Part shown: positions 41,794 to 48,405 of the stretch, piece by piece
Layout: every line of letters starts with the position of its first letter
Numbering within the stretch: position 1 is the first letter of the stretch
NCBI GenBank assembly: GCA_028279885.1
Contig: JANQMX010000042.1
Location: 1 to 64,000, forward strand
Direction of reading: 5' to 3'
DNA length: 64,000 nucleotides
From: Rhodovibrionaceae bacterium
GTDB taxonomy: Bacteria > Pseudomonadota > Alphaproteobacteria > Kiloniellales > DSM-21159
Translations under genes and position numbers: made by a program
The notes under the pieces: model-generated
Told to the model about the DNA's origin: nothing
Databases searched by the model: none
Seen by the model: the letters and a program-made list of their open reading frames with translations, nothing else

Positions 41794-44616
41794 GTGGCCT
41801 TGCAACCGAGTCCTTTGATCGAAGCGAAAGCCCCCCGCGGCACTGCGCCCGGCGCGCGCAGCCAGAGCGCCAAGGGCGGGATCCCGCTGCCCGACCTTTC
41901 GGGCGTGCGGGAGCAGATGCGCATCTGCGCGCGGCGCGGCGCCAACAGCGCCGAGGTTCGCAGCCAGGTTCTGACGCTGCTGCGGGACGCGCACAAGGCG
42001 GGCCGTGAGGCGATCCTGGAGGCCTTCAAGGAAACGCGGGATGGCCGAAAGGCCACCCGGCGCCTTTCAGAGCTGGCGGACCAGATCGTCCGCCTGGCCT
42101 GCCAGCACGCCGCCGAGGACCTCTACCCGCTGGGCAACCCCTCCAAAGCCGAGAAGATCACCCTGGTGGCGGTCGGCGGCTATGGCCGCGGCGAGCTGGC
42201 CCCCTTCTCCGACATCGATCTCTTGTTCCTGCTGCCCTACAAGATCACGCCGCGCAGCGAGCAGGTGGTCGAGGGGGTGCTCTATCTCCTCTGGGACATG
42301 GGCTTCAAGGTCGGTCACGCTACCCGCTCGCTGAACGACTGCCTGCGCCGCGCCCGCAACGACCACACCATCGCCACCAACCTGCTCGAGACCCGCTACC
42401 TCTGGGGCGAAGACGCGCTCTATGACGAGTTCAAGGAGCGCTACCGCAAAGAGGTGGCCGAGGGCCGCGGCGACTGGTTCATCGAAGCCAAGCTCGCCGA
42501 GCGCGACCGGCGCCACCAGCGCCACGCCGAAGGCTCGCGCTATGCGCTGGAGCCCAACATCAAGGAGAGCAAGGGCGGCCTGCGCGACCTGCACACGCTC
42601 TATTGGATCGGCAAGTTCCTCTATGGCGCCGAGGAACCGAAAGACCTGATCGAAGCCGGCGTGCTGACCAAGGAGGAGGCGCGGCGCTTCGACAAGGCGC
42701 TGAACTTCCTCTGGACGCTACGCTGCTGGATGCACGTCATGACCGGCCGCGCCGAGGAGCGGCTGACCTTCGACCTGCAGCAGAACCTGGCGCCGCTGCT
42801 CGGCTTCAACGACCACGCCGGCACCCGCGCGGTCGAGCGCCTGATGAAGCGCTATTTCCTGGTCGCCAAGGACGTCGGCGACCTGACCCGCATCTTCTGC
42901 GCCCAGCTCGAGGCCGAGCACAATCGCCGCTCGCGCTTCCGTCTGCCGAGCCTGGGCCGGCGCCGGCGGGTGCGCGGCTTCGGCCTGGAAGGCGACCGCC
43001 TGCAGGTCAAGGACGCCGAGCACTTCCAGAACAACCCGGTCGACTTGCTGCGCATCTTCCTGGTGGCGCAGGAGGAGGAGCTGGACATCCATCCGGCGAC
43101 CCTGCGCCTGATCACCCAGAACCTGAAGCTGATCGATAAGGACCTGCGGGCCGATCCCAAGGCCTGTCAGGTCTTTCTCGACATCCTCGCCAACAAGACA
43201 AACCCGGCAGTCGCGCTCCGGCGGATGAACGAGGCCGGCGTGTTCGGCAAGTTCATGCCGGATTTCGGGCGGGTCGTCTGCCTGATGCAGTTCAACATGT
43301 ACCACCACTTCACGGTGGACGAGCACACCATCCGCGCCATCGGCACCCTGCATGCCATCGAAGCCGGGGAGCTGGCCGAGGAAGCGCCCATCGCCACCGA
43401 GGTGGTGCATCGCCTGCACTACCGCCGGGCGCTCTACTTCGCCGTGCTGCTGCACGACGTTGCGAAGGGCCGGCCGGAGGACCACTCCATTGCCGGCATG
43501 AAATTGGCCCGGCGCCTCGGGCCCAAGATGGGCCTCAGCGCCGAGGAGACGGAAGCCGCGGCCTGGCTGGTGCTGCATCACCTCGCCATGAGCGACACCG
43601 CCTTCAAGCGCGACCTCAACGACCCCAACACCATCGCGCAGTTCGCCAAGCTGGTGCAGTCGCTGGAGCGCCTGCGTCTCCTCCTGGTGCTGACCGTGGC
43701 CGACATCCGCGCCGTCGGCCCGGGCGTCTGGACCAACTGGAAAGCCTCCCTGCTGCGCGATCTCTTCTGGCGCACCGAGGAGTTCCTGACCGGCGGCCTG
43801 CTGCACGAGGGCCGCGAGACCCGCATCGAAGGGGTCAAAGCGCGGCTCAGCGAGCGCCTGGAAGAGCAGGGCTGGCTGGCCGAGGACATCGAAGCGCACA
43901 TGGCGCGCGGCTATCCCGCCTATTGGCTGTCCGGCGACGTCGATCTCCTCGTCAGCCAGGCGGAGATCGTCCGCGATGCCGAACGCGGCAAGCGGCCGCT
44001 CAGCATCCACTCGCGCATCGACCAGTATCGCGGCGTCACCGAGATCACCGTCTACACCGCCGATCACCCGGGGCTCTTCTCCCAGATCGCCGGCGCCATT
44101 GCCGTGGCCGGTGCCACGGTGGAGGGCGCGCGCATCGCCACCCTGACGAACGGCATGGCGCTCGACACCTTCTATATCGAGGACGCCGGCGGCGGCCCCT
44201 TCGACAGCCCCACGCGTCTCGCCAAGCTCTCGGCCCTGATCGAGCGGGCGCTCTCCGGCCAGCTCAGGATGATCGCCGAGCTCTCCAAACAGACCTCGCC
44301 GCTGCCCTCGCGCTTCGCCGTCTTCAAGGTCGCCCCCCACGTGCTGATCGATAACAAGGCCTCGCGCCACTACACGGTGATCGAGGTCAACGGCCGCGAC
44401 AGCCCGGGCCTGCTCTACCGGGTGACCCTGGCGCTCTCCAAGCTCGGGCTCGGCATCCACGGCGCCAAGATCGCCACCTTCGGCGCGGAGGTGGTCGACG
44501 TCTTCTATGTGCAGGACGTCTTCGGCGACAAGATCGAAGCCCCAGCCAAACAGCGCGCCATCCGCAAGCGCCTCCTCACCGCGCTCGCGGAGTCCCAGGC
44601 GGCGGGGAAGGGTTAA
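41794..44616 (+). CDS. glnD: PII uridylyltransferase / uridylyl-removing enzyme
   Basis: GlnD, 940 aa, senses glutamine and adds UMP to or removes it from PII proteins. The nucleotidyltransferase motif is YGRGELAPFSDIDLLFL, the HD hydrolase motif is FAVLLHDVAKGRPEDHS, and two C-terminal ACT domains (EITVYTADHPGLFSQIAG and TVIEVNGRDSPGLLYRVT) bind glutamine. The start is uncertain: the frame is open from 41629, and GTG 41794 gives the usual length. Pieces of its 3' end are duplicated downstream. In related genomes murJ and trpS follow directly; here two CTERM genes intervene. Confidence 0.95.
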   Translation: MALQPSPLIEAKAPRGTAPGARSQSAKGGIPLPDLSGVREQMRICARRGANSAEVRSQVLTLLRDAHKAGREAILEAFKETRDGRKATRRLSELADQIVRLACQHAAEDLYPLGNPSKAEKITLVAVGGYGRGELAPFSDIDLLFLLPYKITPRSEQVVEGVLYLLWDMGFKVGHATRSLNDCLRRARNDHTIATNLLETRYLWGEDALYDEFKERYRKEVAEGRGDWFIEAKLAERDRRHQRHAEGSRYALEPNIKESKGGLRDLHTLYWIGKFLYGAEEPKDLIEAGVLTKEEARRFDKALNFLWTLRCWMHVMTGRAEERLTFDLQQNLAPLLGFNDHAGTRAVERLMKRYFLVAKDVGDLTRIFCAQLEAEHNRRSRFRLPSLGRRRRVRGFGLEGDRLQVKDAEHFQNNPVDLLRIFLVAQEEELDIHPATLRLITQNLKLIDKDLRADPKACQVFLDILANKTNPAVALRRMNEAGVFGKFMPDFGRVVCLMQFNMYHHFTVDEHTIRAIGTLHAIEAGELAEEAPIATEVVHRLHYRRALYFAVLLHDVAKGRPEDHSIAGMKLARRLGPKMGLSAEETEAAAWLVLHHLAMSDTAFKRDLNDPNTIAQFAKLVQSLERLRLLLVLTVADIRAVGPGVWTNWKASLLRDLFWRTEEFLTGGLLHEGRETRIEGVKARLSERLEEQGWLAEDIEAHMARGYPAYWLSGDVDLLVSQAEIVRDAERGKRPLSIHSRIDQYRGVTEITVYTADHPGLFSQIAGAIAVAGATVEGARIATLTNGMALDTFYIEDAGGGPFDSPTRLAKLSALIERALSGQLRMIAELSKQTSPLPSRFAVFKVAPHVLIDNKASRHYTVIEVNGRDSPGLLYRVTLALSKLGLGIHGAKIATFGAEVVDVFYVQDVFGDKIEAPAKQRAIRKRLLTALAESQAAGKG

Positions 44617-44632
44617 GGGTTCCTCTCAGGAT

Positions 44633-44955
44633 GTCATCCTTGGGCGGGCCCAGCGGGCCCGTCCCGCATGCGGGCCGAAGCCCTTCGGCGCGGCGAAGGC
44701 CCGAGGATCCACTCATCAGCCCGCACAGAACCCTGCCGCTGCTGCGCACCTCGCCAACGTGAGCCCTCGGAACTCGCCGCTCTGCGGCTCGCCCAAGGGT
44801 GACAAAGGTAGGGGGCGCGGAAAGCGCAGCACCACAGACTGTCATCCCGGCCTTGAGCCGGGATCCATGGTTGGGCCGGGCGCGGACGATCGAAGGAAAG
44901 GCGCAGGCCGACGAATGGACCCCGGCTCGCGGGCTGCGCCCTTGGCCGGGGTGAC
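44633..44955. repeat. Two dispersed GTCAYCC elements after glnD
   Basis: Unit 44633-44803 begins 16 bases after the glnD stop (GTCATCCTTGGGCG to CCCAAGGGTGAC). Unit 44841-44955 is of the CCCGG type (GTCATCCCGG to CCGGGGTGAC). The 37-base linker includes AAAGCGCAGCACCACAGACT. No gene lies in this 355-base gap. They separate glnD from the convergent CTERM gene. Confidence 0.75.
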
Positions 44956-44971
44956 ATGCGGGGTGCTGTTC

Positions 44972-45625
44972 CTACGCCCCCCTCGCGGCGGCGAGGCGTC
45001 CAGCGGGGCAGGGGCCGGTACGGCGCAGAAGCGCCACACCACCGAGACCGACGAGCAGCAGCAGCAGCGTCGGCGGCAGCGATAGCGGGGTCACTTCGGT
45101 CACCCGCGACCAGTTGGCGGGGTCCAGCACTCCCTGCACATCGGCAAGAGACAACGCTACAGAAAGTGAATCATCGAACAGCACTTCATTCTCGCCGTTG
45201 ATGAACCAGCTCAAATCGGTGTCGAAGGGGAAACTGGCAGCCAAATCGACCGTGGCACTACTATCGCTCCAGTTCGATGGTGCAGAGATCAGGTTGCCCG
45301 CAGCGCCCGTGGCAAAGCTGCCGGAGCTTCCAGACAAGCCGCCGTCGAAGGGGGTGAAGAAGCTGACCACAGCGGCGCCGTTGTTGATGTCGAAGGTGAC
45401 GGACTGCAGGTGATCCGCCGTCCAGACCTGGGACAGGTCGTTCGTTCCGCCGTTGTCGAGGGTCACCGTGATGCTGGCGGGATCGCCGACCTCAGCGAAA
45501 GTCCCTGAGGGATCAATGCCGCTGATCTGACTCTCGAAGCGATAGGAGAAGGGAACGGCCGACGCGCTCGTGCCCATTACCATAAGCGCCAGCCCGACGG
45601 ACAGCGCTGAGAAAAATGCTCTCAT
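44972..45625 (-). CDS. PEP-CTERM-like secreted protein, copy 1
   Basis: A 217-residue exported protein. An N-terminal signal peptide (FFSALSVGLALMVMGTSASA) is followed by a beta-rich Asn/Ser/Gly domain (FSYRFESQISGIDPSG, WSDSSATVDLAASFPFD). It ends with a short Pro-flanked hydrophobic helix (LPPTLLLLLVGLGGVALL) and an Arg-rich tail. This tripartite end matches VPLPA/PEP-CTERM sorting signals processed by exosortases. No exosortase gene is in the window. Start ATG 45625 has GGGGAG upstream. Its paralogue lies 485 bases away with the same ends and a different, shorter middle. Confidence 0.82.
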   Translation of the reverse strand: MRAFFSALSVGLALMVMGTSASAVPFSYRFESQISGIDPSGTFAEVGDPASITVTLDNGGTNDLSQVWTADHLQSVTFDINNGAAVVSFFTPFDGGLSGSSGSFATGAAGNLISAPSNWSDSSATVDLAASFPFDTDLSWFINGENEVLFDDSLSVALSLADVQGVLDPANWSRVTEVTPLSLPPTLLLLLVGLGGVALLRRTGPCPAGRLAAARGA

Positions 45626-45781
45626 GAAAGACTCCCCAAGTTTCAGTAGCTCCAAAGCACAGACCGGGCCCGCCCGGCTGCAACCACAGCTATAACCACT
45701 ATCATTCACTAGTATACACGTCTACAGGAAAAGTGTGGCTTCCTGGCGAAGCGCCGCAAAAAAGCAAGCGAGATCACCTGG

Positions 45782-45851
45782 CAAGCAGCGCGCCATCCGC
45801 AAGCGCCTCCTGACCGCGCTCGCCGAATCTCAGGCGGCGGGGAAGGCCTGA
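45782..45851 (+). pseudogene. Duplicated 3' end of glnD
   Basis: Seventy bases that match the last 70 bases of glnD (44547-44616) at about 62 positions and still read QRAIRKRLLTALAESQAAGK before a stop codon. Upstream of 45782 the similarity ends abruptly. There is no start codon or preceding domain, so it is a fragment left by a local duplication that also included repeat units and the CTERM gene. Confidence 0.85.
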
Positions 45852-45866
45852 ATATTCCCTCGGCCT

Positions 45867-46049
45867 GTCACCCCGGCCCTTAGGCGAGCCAAAGGTTGAC
45901 AGCCTAAATTGAGCCATGGGCGGCGCAGCACCCCCTACTGTCATCCCGGCCAAGGGCGAGAGCCCGCGAGCCGGGAACCATGGAAACGCCTGCGCTGGCT
46001 TAGAAATGGACCCCGGATGTCACCTCTCACGAGGCTCCTCCGGGGTGAC
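45867..46049. repeat. Degenerate and full dispersed GTCAYCC elements
   Basis: A collapsed 34-bp unit (45867-45900) is followed by a full 110-bp unit (45940-46049), which is preceded by CGGCGCAGCACCCCCTACT. This mirrors the layout between glnD and CTERM copy 1. With the glnD fragment it fills the 484-base gap between the CTERM genes; the remaining 45626-45781 is the AT-richer upstream region of copy 1, with a TATACT -10-like hexamer on the minus strand at 45711-45716. Confidence 0.7.
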
Positions 46050-46109
46050 GAGAGGAGAGCGGCACCAAACGCGTAGCTCACCCGAGGGTAGCAGTTGGTA
46101 GTGGTTGGT

Positions 46110-46490
46110 CTAGGCACCTCTCGCCTCGGCGAAGGCCCCGGTCGTGGCGGGGCTGCCGCGGCGCAGCAGGGCCACGCCACCCAGACCGACGAGCAGCAGC
46201 AGCAGCGTCGAGGGCAATGACATGGGGGCCGCTTGGGTCACCAGCGTCCAATTTTCGGGCTCGATAGTCCCGCCCACAGTCTCGAGCCGCAACTCTACAG
46301 TATCGGAGATCAGGACCGGATTGAACCCGTTGATGGACCAGTCGAATTCGGGCTCACCTGCCCCAGCGGGTAACCCCGACGCGTTGGTGGCCGTGGCCTC
46401 GAAGCGGTAAGAGAAAGGAACGGCGGAGGCGCTGGTGCCCATCACCATAAGCGCCACCCCGACCGACAGCGCTGAAAGACGTGCTTTCAT
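46110..46490 (-). CDS. PEP-CTERM-like secreted protein, copy 2 (short)
   Basis: A 126-residue paralogue of the protein encoded at 44972-45625. The signal peptide (LSALSVGVALMVMGTSASA), the first mature residues (VPFSYRFE) and the C-terminal sorting helix (LPSTLLLLLVGLGGVALLRR) are almost identical. The middle is about 80 residues shorter and largely different (WSINGFNPVLISDTVELRLE, EPENWTLVTQ). Only fragments such as the W-x-I-N-G motif align. It is probably exported and held or released by an exosortase system elsewhere in the genome. Confidence 0.8.
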   Translation of the reverse strand: MKARLSALSVGVALMVMGTSASAVPFSYRFEATATNASGLPAGAGEPEFDWSINGFNPVLISDTVELRLETVGGTIEPENWTLVTQAAPMSLPSTLLLLLVGLGGVALLRRGSPATTGAFAEARGA

Positions 46491-46656
46491 GAATACGCCC
46501 CAAGGTTCAGTTGCCCCTAGGCGGACAACATGGAGGAGCGTTTGCCGGACCGGTAAGGAGCATTTCTCAAGGGGGTGGTGCGGAGAATTCCAACCCTCCG
46601 AAAGGCCTTTCCGTTCAAGCGTTCAAGCTCATCGGACGGCGCGCGCCGCGAGGGCA

Positions 46657-46713
46657 GCGAGTCGGGCTGCCGGGAAGGCTTGAGGATCTCTCAAGACGTC
46701 ATCCGTGGGCGGG
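46657..46713 (+). repeat. Possible third, decayed copy of the glnD end and repeat start
   Basis: Similar, with several mismatches and small gaps, to the glnD stop region and the start of the following element (about 44587-44648): GGGAAGGCTTGAGG compares with the glnD end, and GTCATCCGTGGGCGGG with the element start. It lies in the 361-base gap between CTERM copy 2 and murJ, which otherwise holds their promoters. Identification is by eye. Confidence 0.4.
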
Positions 46714-46851: not shown

Positions 46852-48405
46852 ATGTCGCTTCTTCGCTCCTTTGCCACGGTCAGCGGCTTCACCGCGGCCT
46901 CTCGCGTGCTCGGCTTCTTGCGCGACATCCTGATCGCCAACTACCTGGGCAGCGGCCCGATCGCCGACGCCTTCTTCGTCGCCTTCCGCTTTCCCAACCT
47001 CTTCCGCCGTCTGTTCGCCGAGGGCGCCTTCAGCGCCGCCTTCGTGCCGGTCTTCGCCAAACGCCTGGAGGAGGAAGGGCGGGAGGCCGCGCGGAAGCTC
47101 GGCGAGGAGGTGCAGGCGGTGCTGGCTATCGGCGTCTTCGCCTTCACGGCGCTGGCCATCATCTTCATGCCCTGGCTGATGCCGCTGATCGCACCCGGCT
47201 TCCGCGACGATCCCGAGCAGATGCAGCGCGCCATAGAACTGGCGCAGATCTGCTTCCCCTACCTCTTCTTCATGTCGCTGACGGCGATGCTGAGCGGCGT
47301 GCTCAACTCGCTCTACCACTTCGCCGCGGGGGCGGCGGCACCGGTCGCGCTCAACGTCTGCTTCATCGTCTCCCTGCTGCTCATCGTGCCGGCCAGCGAG
47401 GAGCCGGGGGAGGTGCTGGCCTGGACCGTCACCGTTGCCGGCGTCGTCCAGGTCGCCATCGTGGTGGTCGCCTGCCGCACCATGGGCATGAGCTTGCGGC
47501 CCAGCCTGCCGCGTCTGTCGCCCGGCGTGCGGCGCATCTTCAAGCTGATGGGGCCCGGCGTGCTCTCCGCCGGGGTGCTGCAGATCAACATCCTGGTCGG
47601 CACCATGATCGCCTCGCTGCAGGCCGGCGCCGTCTCCTGGCTCTACTACGCCGACCGGGTCTATCAGCTGCCGCTGGGTCTGATCGGCATCGCCATCGGC
47701 GTGGTGCTGCTGCCCGACCTCACCCGCAAGCTGCGCGGCGGCGACAGCGAGCAGGCGCTTCACAGCCTGAACCGCGGGGTCGAGATGGCGCTGCTGCTGA
47801 CCCTGCCGGCCACGGCGGCGCTGTTGGTCATCCCGGTACCCATCGCCGAGGTGCTGTTCCAGCGCGGTGCCTTCACCGCCGCCGACAGTCAGGCGACGGC
47901 GCAGGCACTCTTCGCCTTCGCTCTCGGCCTGCCGGCCTATGTGCTGGTCAAGGTGCTGCAACCCGCCTTCTACGCGCGGGAGAACACCGTCACCCCCTTC
48001 CACTTCGCCGCCATCGCGGTGGCCGCCAACGTCGTGCTGAGCCTTGCGCTGTTCTACTGGATCGGCTTCGTCGGCATCGCCCTGGCCACCGCCGCCGCCG
48101 CTTGGCTGCAAACCCTGCTGCTCGCCGTCCGGCTGCTGCGCGACGGCAGCGCGCGGCCCGACGGCGCCTTGCTGCGCCGGCTGCCGCGCAGCCTCTTGGC
48201 CTCGGCCGTGATGGCGGCGCTGCTCTGGGGCCTGCACCAGGCACTCCAGCCCTGGCTCGCAGCCGGCGAGGGACCGGCGCTCCTGGCGCTCGCCATTTTG
48301 GTGGGGGCGGGCCTCGCCGTCTTTGGCCTCAGCGCGCTGCTGTTCCGGGCCATCACCCTGGGCGAGGTCCGGGCGCTGCTCCGCCGCCGCAAGCCCGCCG
48401 CTTGA
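46852..48405 (+). CDS. murJ: Lipid II flippase MurJ (MviN)
   Basis: MurJ, 517 aa, with about 14 membrane helices; it moves lipid II across the inner membrane for peptidoglycan synthesis. The family start is evident (TVSGFTAASRVLGFLRDILIA written in pieces, GPIADAFFVAFRFPNLFRR), as is FAEGAFSAAFVPVF, with the essential Arg residues in the first helices. ATG 46852. Its usual upstream neighbour glnD is 2.2 kb away because of the CTERM/repeat insertion, and trpS follows after 97 bases. Confidence 0.96.
   Translation: MSLLRSFATVSGFTAASRVLGFLRDILIANYLGSGPIADAFFVAFRFPNLFRRLFAEGAFSAAFVPVFAKRLEEEGREAARKLGEEVQAVLAIGVFAFTALAIIFMPWLMPLIAPGFRDDPEQMQRAIELAQICFPYLFFMSLTAMLSGVLNSLYHFAAGAAAPVALNVCFIVSLLLIVPASEEPGEVLAWTVTVAGVVQVAIVVVACRTMGMSLRPSLPRLSPGVRRIFKLMGPGVLSAGVLQINILVGTMIASLQAGAVSWLYYADRVYQLPLGLIGIAIGVVLLPDLTRKLRGGDSEQALHSLNRGVEMALLLTLPATAALLVIPVPIAEVLFQRGAFTAADSQATAQALFAFALGLPAYVLVKVLQPAFYARENTVTPFHFAAIAVAANVVLSLALFYWIGFVGIALATAAAAWLQTLLLAVRLLRDGSARPDGALLRRLPRSLLASAVMAALLWGLHQALQPWLAAGEGPALLALAILVGAGLAVFGLSALLFRAITLGEVRALLRRRKPAA

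Follow-up and report, generated by a model that had tools for sequence, protein, structure and literature searches.

Repeated glnD 3′ Ends Between glnD and murJ in a Rhodovibrionaceae Bacterium: A Probable Record of Displacement Rather Than of Simple Tandem Duplication

Organization of the glnD–murJ Interval

The stretch of DNA analyzed here (hereafter the window; 64,000 nucleotides from a Rhodovibrionaceae bacterium) carries an intact glnD gene followed by repeated copies of its own 3′ end, interspersed repeats, two small CTERM genes on the minus strand, and finally murJ (Table 1). The GlnD protein of the sister species (G001) is 92% identical. A preliminary description, made from the letters alone, had reported a glnD fragment downstream of the gene that matches about 62 of 70 bases and still reads in frame, and this is exactly what is found: 44547-44616 and 45782-45851 differ at eight positions (62/70 identical), and the copy remains in frame down to a stop codon. 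The self-comparison aligns 65 nt at 92% identity (44547-44611 with 45782-45846), and the left edge of the orphan copy, tail 2, is uncertain within ~45768-45782. The similarity is far beyond chance: against all 5.6 Mb of the genome, the match between tail 2 and the glnD end has an E-value of 5e-21, and the runner-up has one of 0.008. Of the final 23 GlnD positions, with the stop counted, tail 2 still encodes 22; the two frames read KQRAIRKRLLTALAESQAAGKA and ...GKG ahead of their stop codons. Both the repetition of the gene end and its in-frame state are directly visible. Additionally, tail 2 is traversed by a 38-aa frame that begins with GTG (45735-45851; MASWRSAAKKQARSPGKQRAIRKRLLTALAESQAAGKA), and nothing marks this frame as a gene. 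The order of glnD end, repeats, and minus-strand CTERM gene, likewise described previously, is present twice, at 44547-45625 and at 45782-46490. Homology of the two modules is supported.

Table 1. Features of the glnD–murJ interval (positions in the window).
Feature	Position	Strand	Description	Basis
glnD	41806..44616	+	[protein-PII] uridylyltransferase, intact	NCBIfam PRK05092 equivalog, 1252 bits, over cut-off
Tail 1	44547-44616	+	Active glnD 3′ end, last 70 bases
Spacer 1	44617..44971	.	Genome-wide interspersed palindromic repeats	Matched tens of times across many contigs in both genus genomes
CTERM gene 1	44972..45625	-	217 aa; signal peptide, inferred short beta-type domain, LPPTLLLLLVGLGGVALLRR sorting-like tail	ORF, homology
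CTERM gene 1 promoter region	45626-45776
Tail 2	45782-45851	+	Second, orphan glnD end; stop TGA
Spacer 2	45852..46109	.	Interspersed repeats
CTERM gene 2	46110..46490	-	126 aa; signal peptide and C-terminal anchor as in CTERM 1
Tail 3	~46636-46687	+	Degenerate; probably a third glnD end	Self-match, pre-repeat ranking
murJ	46852..48405	+	Downstream neighbour	NCBIfam TIGR01695, 458 bits

A third, degenerate glnD end, tail 3, is probably located 165 bp upstream of murJ, with a repeat of the interspersed type starting nine bases after it. In a 2.5-kb self-comparison, 46665-46714 matches 44598-44649 at 81% (E = 7e-8); part of this match is the genome-wide repeat itself, and hence only the 66 bases preceding the repeat were aligned to the three glnD ends. 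In this ranking, tail 3 outscores all 259 others that lie just before a repeat start of this kind in the loci compared and is the best of 260 against all three ends; with the repeat part set aside, it is not exceptional in the window, where 16-40 of 3728 sequence windows score equally well.

CTERM Genes and Interspersed Repeats

CTERM 1 is homologous to a gene of the sister species (L053:1406-2020, 70%) and to a paralogue on contig C78 of the same genome (69%). CTERM 2 lacks ~90 residues of the middle part, and its 5′ region past ~46517 is unlike that of the other copies; the two genes of the interval share two alignable blocks, one of 121 nt (83% identity) and one of 153 nt (76%). As in the PEP-CTERM/exosortase system (PMC1569441), the proteins combine a signal peptide, a hydrophobic stretch, and a basic cluster at the end, and the genome encodes two exosortases (PF09721 matches of 231.7 and 230.9 bits, over the Pfam cut-off). 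In contrast to that system, ~9-15 residues follow the RR cluster, and a search against the NCBIfam and Pfam CTERM models returned no match above cut-off (TIGR02595 reached 14.1 bits, with its cut-off at 16; the other models score lower still relative to their own cut-offs). With the C-terminal segments under every curated cut-off, the name CTERM is used here for likeness, not membership, and the proteins are probably exosortase-sorted surface proteins. The residues after the RR cluster (...FAEARGA; 44972-45016 and 46110-46160) are apparently encoded by part of an interspersed repeat, and this apparent source, TCTCGCCTCGGCGAAG, is found elsewhere in both genomes of the genus.

The spacers consist of repeats from a very abundant interspersed palindromic family (TGTCATCCCGGCC.../CCGGGGTGACA), which comprises several subtypes of ~40-120 bp each and for which an Rfam search returned no match. 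Relative to the one spacer of the sister species, spacer 2 is in register (171 nt align at 82%, and 25/25 bases agree at an equal distance past the stop codon), although repeats elsewhere are as similar to the sister spacer as spacer 2 is. The repeats common to the two spacers were rejected as module evidence; because they occur genome-wide, they argue neither for nor against duplication.

The second CTERM locus (L054:4658-5910, on contig C78) contains a tandem CTERM-family pair of 79-81% identity, in which one gene is intact (216 aa) and the other copy carries an internal deletion and no longer has a start codon. A duplicated gene end was sought beside this pair and none was found, the repetition being limited to the pair. 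Islands integrate at the ends of tRNA or housekeeping genes and restore the gene end. A small mobile unit that inserts at the glnD 3′ end, restores it, and leaves a direct repeat with each insertion would likewise explain why direct repeats of the glnD 3′ end flank each unit and why a third copy lies at the far end. Such an origin is nonetheless very improbable, as the interval from glnD to murJ contains CTERM genes and repeats only, with no integrase or other mobility gene, the ends of the units are not identical, and the C78 locus carries its CTERM genes without a repeated gene end.

Related Genomes and Divergence of the Copies

The comparison set comprised 12 genomes of the family, including one other species of the genus, the sister species G001, an incomplete Rhodovibrionaceae metagenome-assembled genome (MAG); a search of named genomes with glnD returned a single close relative, an incomplete Rhodovibrionaceae MAG. 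Among the 12 genomes, the CTERM gene is found only in the two of this genus. The sister species has one module, consisting of the glnD end, repeats, and one CTERM gene, followed by a gene that we take to be YceI-like from reading its sequence. This gene (L053:300-960) takes the expected place of murJ on the far side of the CTERM gene, and its region has only repeat matches in the genome of the window; murJ itself had no match in the incomplete G001 genome. In two further genomes (G004 and G005), glnD and murJ are adjacent, with at most ~200 bp between the matched parts and no module, and in G009 an unrelated gene lies between them. For the remaining family genomes that were inspected, a search of the few kb following glnD did not find murJ (in G010, this region amounted to a few bases). 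The inspection of relatives that the preliminary description had recommended thus gives zero modules or one, and with the window all three states, zero, one, and two, are observed directly.

Pairwise identity among CTERM 1, CTERM 2, the copy in G001, and the paralogue on C78 is ~68-75%, and dS is 0.55-0.68 for every pair; CTERM 1 and CTERM 2 (~68-71%) resemble each other no more than they resemble the C78 paralogue or the sister copy. Between the genome of the window and G001, dS is 0.26-0.30 for glnD and mutS and 0.48 for a fast-evolving neighbour gene. Over 69 bases, tail 2 differs from the G001 glnD end at three positions and the active tail 1 at five, and no base is common to tails 1 and 2 against G001; the eight differences between the two tails accordingly divide into five unique to tail 1 and three unique to tail 2. 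A tandem duplication that copied the entire module recently, once the two species had separated, has a simple topology in its favor, along with 92% identity of the tails over 65 nt, but it is hardly credible given tails without a single shared base against the sister species and CTERM genes that have diverged from each other as far as from the other copies. Equally improbable is an assembly artefact in which two haplotypes were joined: the assembly is divided into 111 contigs and the spacers are repeat-rich, whereas the copies are 8-30% diverged, the junctions are distinct, and CTERM 2 carries an internal deletion.

In the tree, CTERM 1 joins the G001 copy and CTERM 2 joins the C78 pair (support 95/94). 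Constraining CTERM 1 and CTERM 2 to one clade is 5.9 log units worse with five rows (p-AU 0.047) and 1.5 log units worse with the four rows that remain without the fragmentary C78b (p-AU 0.33). From these comparisons, the two genes may well not be sister genes, although their signal-peptide ends are nearer to each other than to that of the sister species' copy.

The silent changes bear on how long tail 2 has been an orphan. Seven of the eight differences between the two tails are silent, with the TAA/TGA exchange included. For a freely drifting tail 2, ~55% of the changes would be non-silent, and the probability of at most one in eight is 0.017, which rises to 0.12 if tail 2 was orphaned for half of its branch. 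The decay without coding constraint that is expected of a tandem duplication was thus not found (P ~ 0.017, on small numbers). Furthermore, the three differences between tail 2 and G001 are typical of functional glnD (mean 4.7 per 69 nt) and fewer than the 9.4 that neutral drift would be expected to produce over the time since the two species separated; the scarcity of differences has P = 0.016 against neutral decay, and 0.07-0.16 under slower clocks. These tail tests overlap, their common base being eight differences in 69 bases, and a P-value of ~0.02 is modest. The pattern is as if both glnD ends had worked in glnD until recently.

The main rival to the displacement set out below, and a possible one, is a tandem duplication of the glnD-end and CTERM module at or before the split of the two species, after which the sister species would have kept one copy or regained the single-copy state by recombination between the tails. 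The tails and CTERM genes recur in one order and orientation, the two spacers have a common skeleton, the tail dS (0.45) and the CTERM dS (0.59) between copies 1 and 2 are similar in size, and a donor is not required. Such an ancient duplication would, on the other hand, have to accommodate an orphan tail that has kept nearly all of its coding positions through almost exclusively silent change, a tail 2 and spacer 2 that are nearer to the sister species than copy 1 is, a tree that does not pair CTERM 1 with CTERM 2, and a third tail that demands an additional duplication and loss. It is thus entertained as a tentative alternative. The inference of a tandem duplication of the whole module, drawn in the preliminary description, therefore stands only in part: the modules are homologous, but a simple duplication in place fits poorly because CTERM 1 and CTERM 2 are no closer mutually than to the paralogue or the sister copy and because an old fragment left in place should decay regardless of coding.

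Displacement at the glnD 3′ End

The interval is probably a record of displacement, of a kind known from other loci, rather than of simple tandem duplication. In the reading that we favor, at a probability of roughly one half, a diverged glnD 3′ end with its CTERM gene was recombined in, and the old end with its CTERM gene was left behind. A DNA fragment from a related strain would have brought a diverged glnD end, a spacer, and a CTERM allele; homologous recombination inside glnD would have joined it at one side, and an illegitimate join at ~45777-45781, within the last 23 codons of the resident glnD, at the other. The incoming end, now tail 1 with CTERM 1, would have kept glnD whole, while the resident end, tail 2 with CTERM 2, would have been displaced downstream, where decay began; tail 3 may be the remnant of an earlier round of replacement. 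The donor, the mechanism of recombination, and the order of events are what we infer in this scheme. A junction is visible in the self-comparison at ~45777-45781, and wear rises away from glnD, with CTERM 2 internally deleted and altered in its 5′ region and tail 3 barely recognizable. If two glnD ends each evolved as working ends and now lie on one chromosome, arrival from another strain is the simplest account.

Several results count against the displacement. The AU test against a clade of CTERM 1 and CTERM 2 is borderline in the larger alignment and not significant in the smaller one; the signal-peptide ends of the two genes are mutually closer than to the sister species; and the CTERM dS is only moderately above the value of 0.48 for the fast neighbour gene, so that the CTERM copies could have diverged at about the time when the two species did.

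The closest known parallel is found in the type VI secretion system (T6SS) effector-immunity modules of Vibrio cholerae, in which modules are displaced sequentially and homology-facilitated illegitimate recombination has been proposed (Kirchberger et al., 2017, PMC5361080). Both systems combine an anchor that is conserved upstream with a new module downstream of it, behind which the 3′ ends of older genes and their partner genes stand in a row. Unlike the V. cholerae modules, in which immunity genes are retained with a clear benefit, the locus described here carries a decaying small CTERM gene behind a housekeeping gene, and far fewer strains are available for comparison. Homology-facilitated illegitimate recombination has been demonstrated in naturally competent bacteria and, as a rare event, in Escherichia coli conjugation (PMC3240628); a homologous join at one end and an illegitimate join at the other would yield the glnD-CTERM structure, and its operation at glnD is suggested by the topology and the divergence pattern. 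The locus also resembles an ordinary tandem duplication with a truncated neighbour end, in that the repeated parts share one order and orientation, but the divergence and the silent changes do not suit a copy made in place and freed from selection.

More speculatively, and with considerable doubt, the interval from glnD to murJ may be a recurrent swap site for alleles of CTERM surface proteins, in which the conserved end of glnD would serve as homologous anchor and the stacked old glnD ends would record past swaps. A repeated gene end together with a repeated neighbour does not by itself prove tandem duplication. If displacement is the true origin, short repeats of the end of a housekeeping gene behind that gene would provide a dated record of imported neighbours, beyond the toxin-immunity loci.
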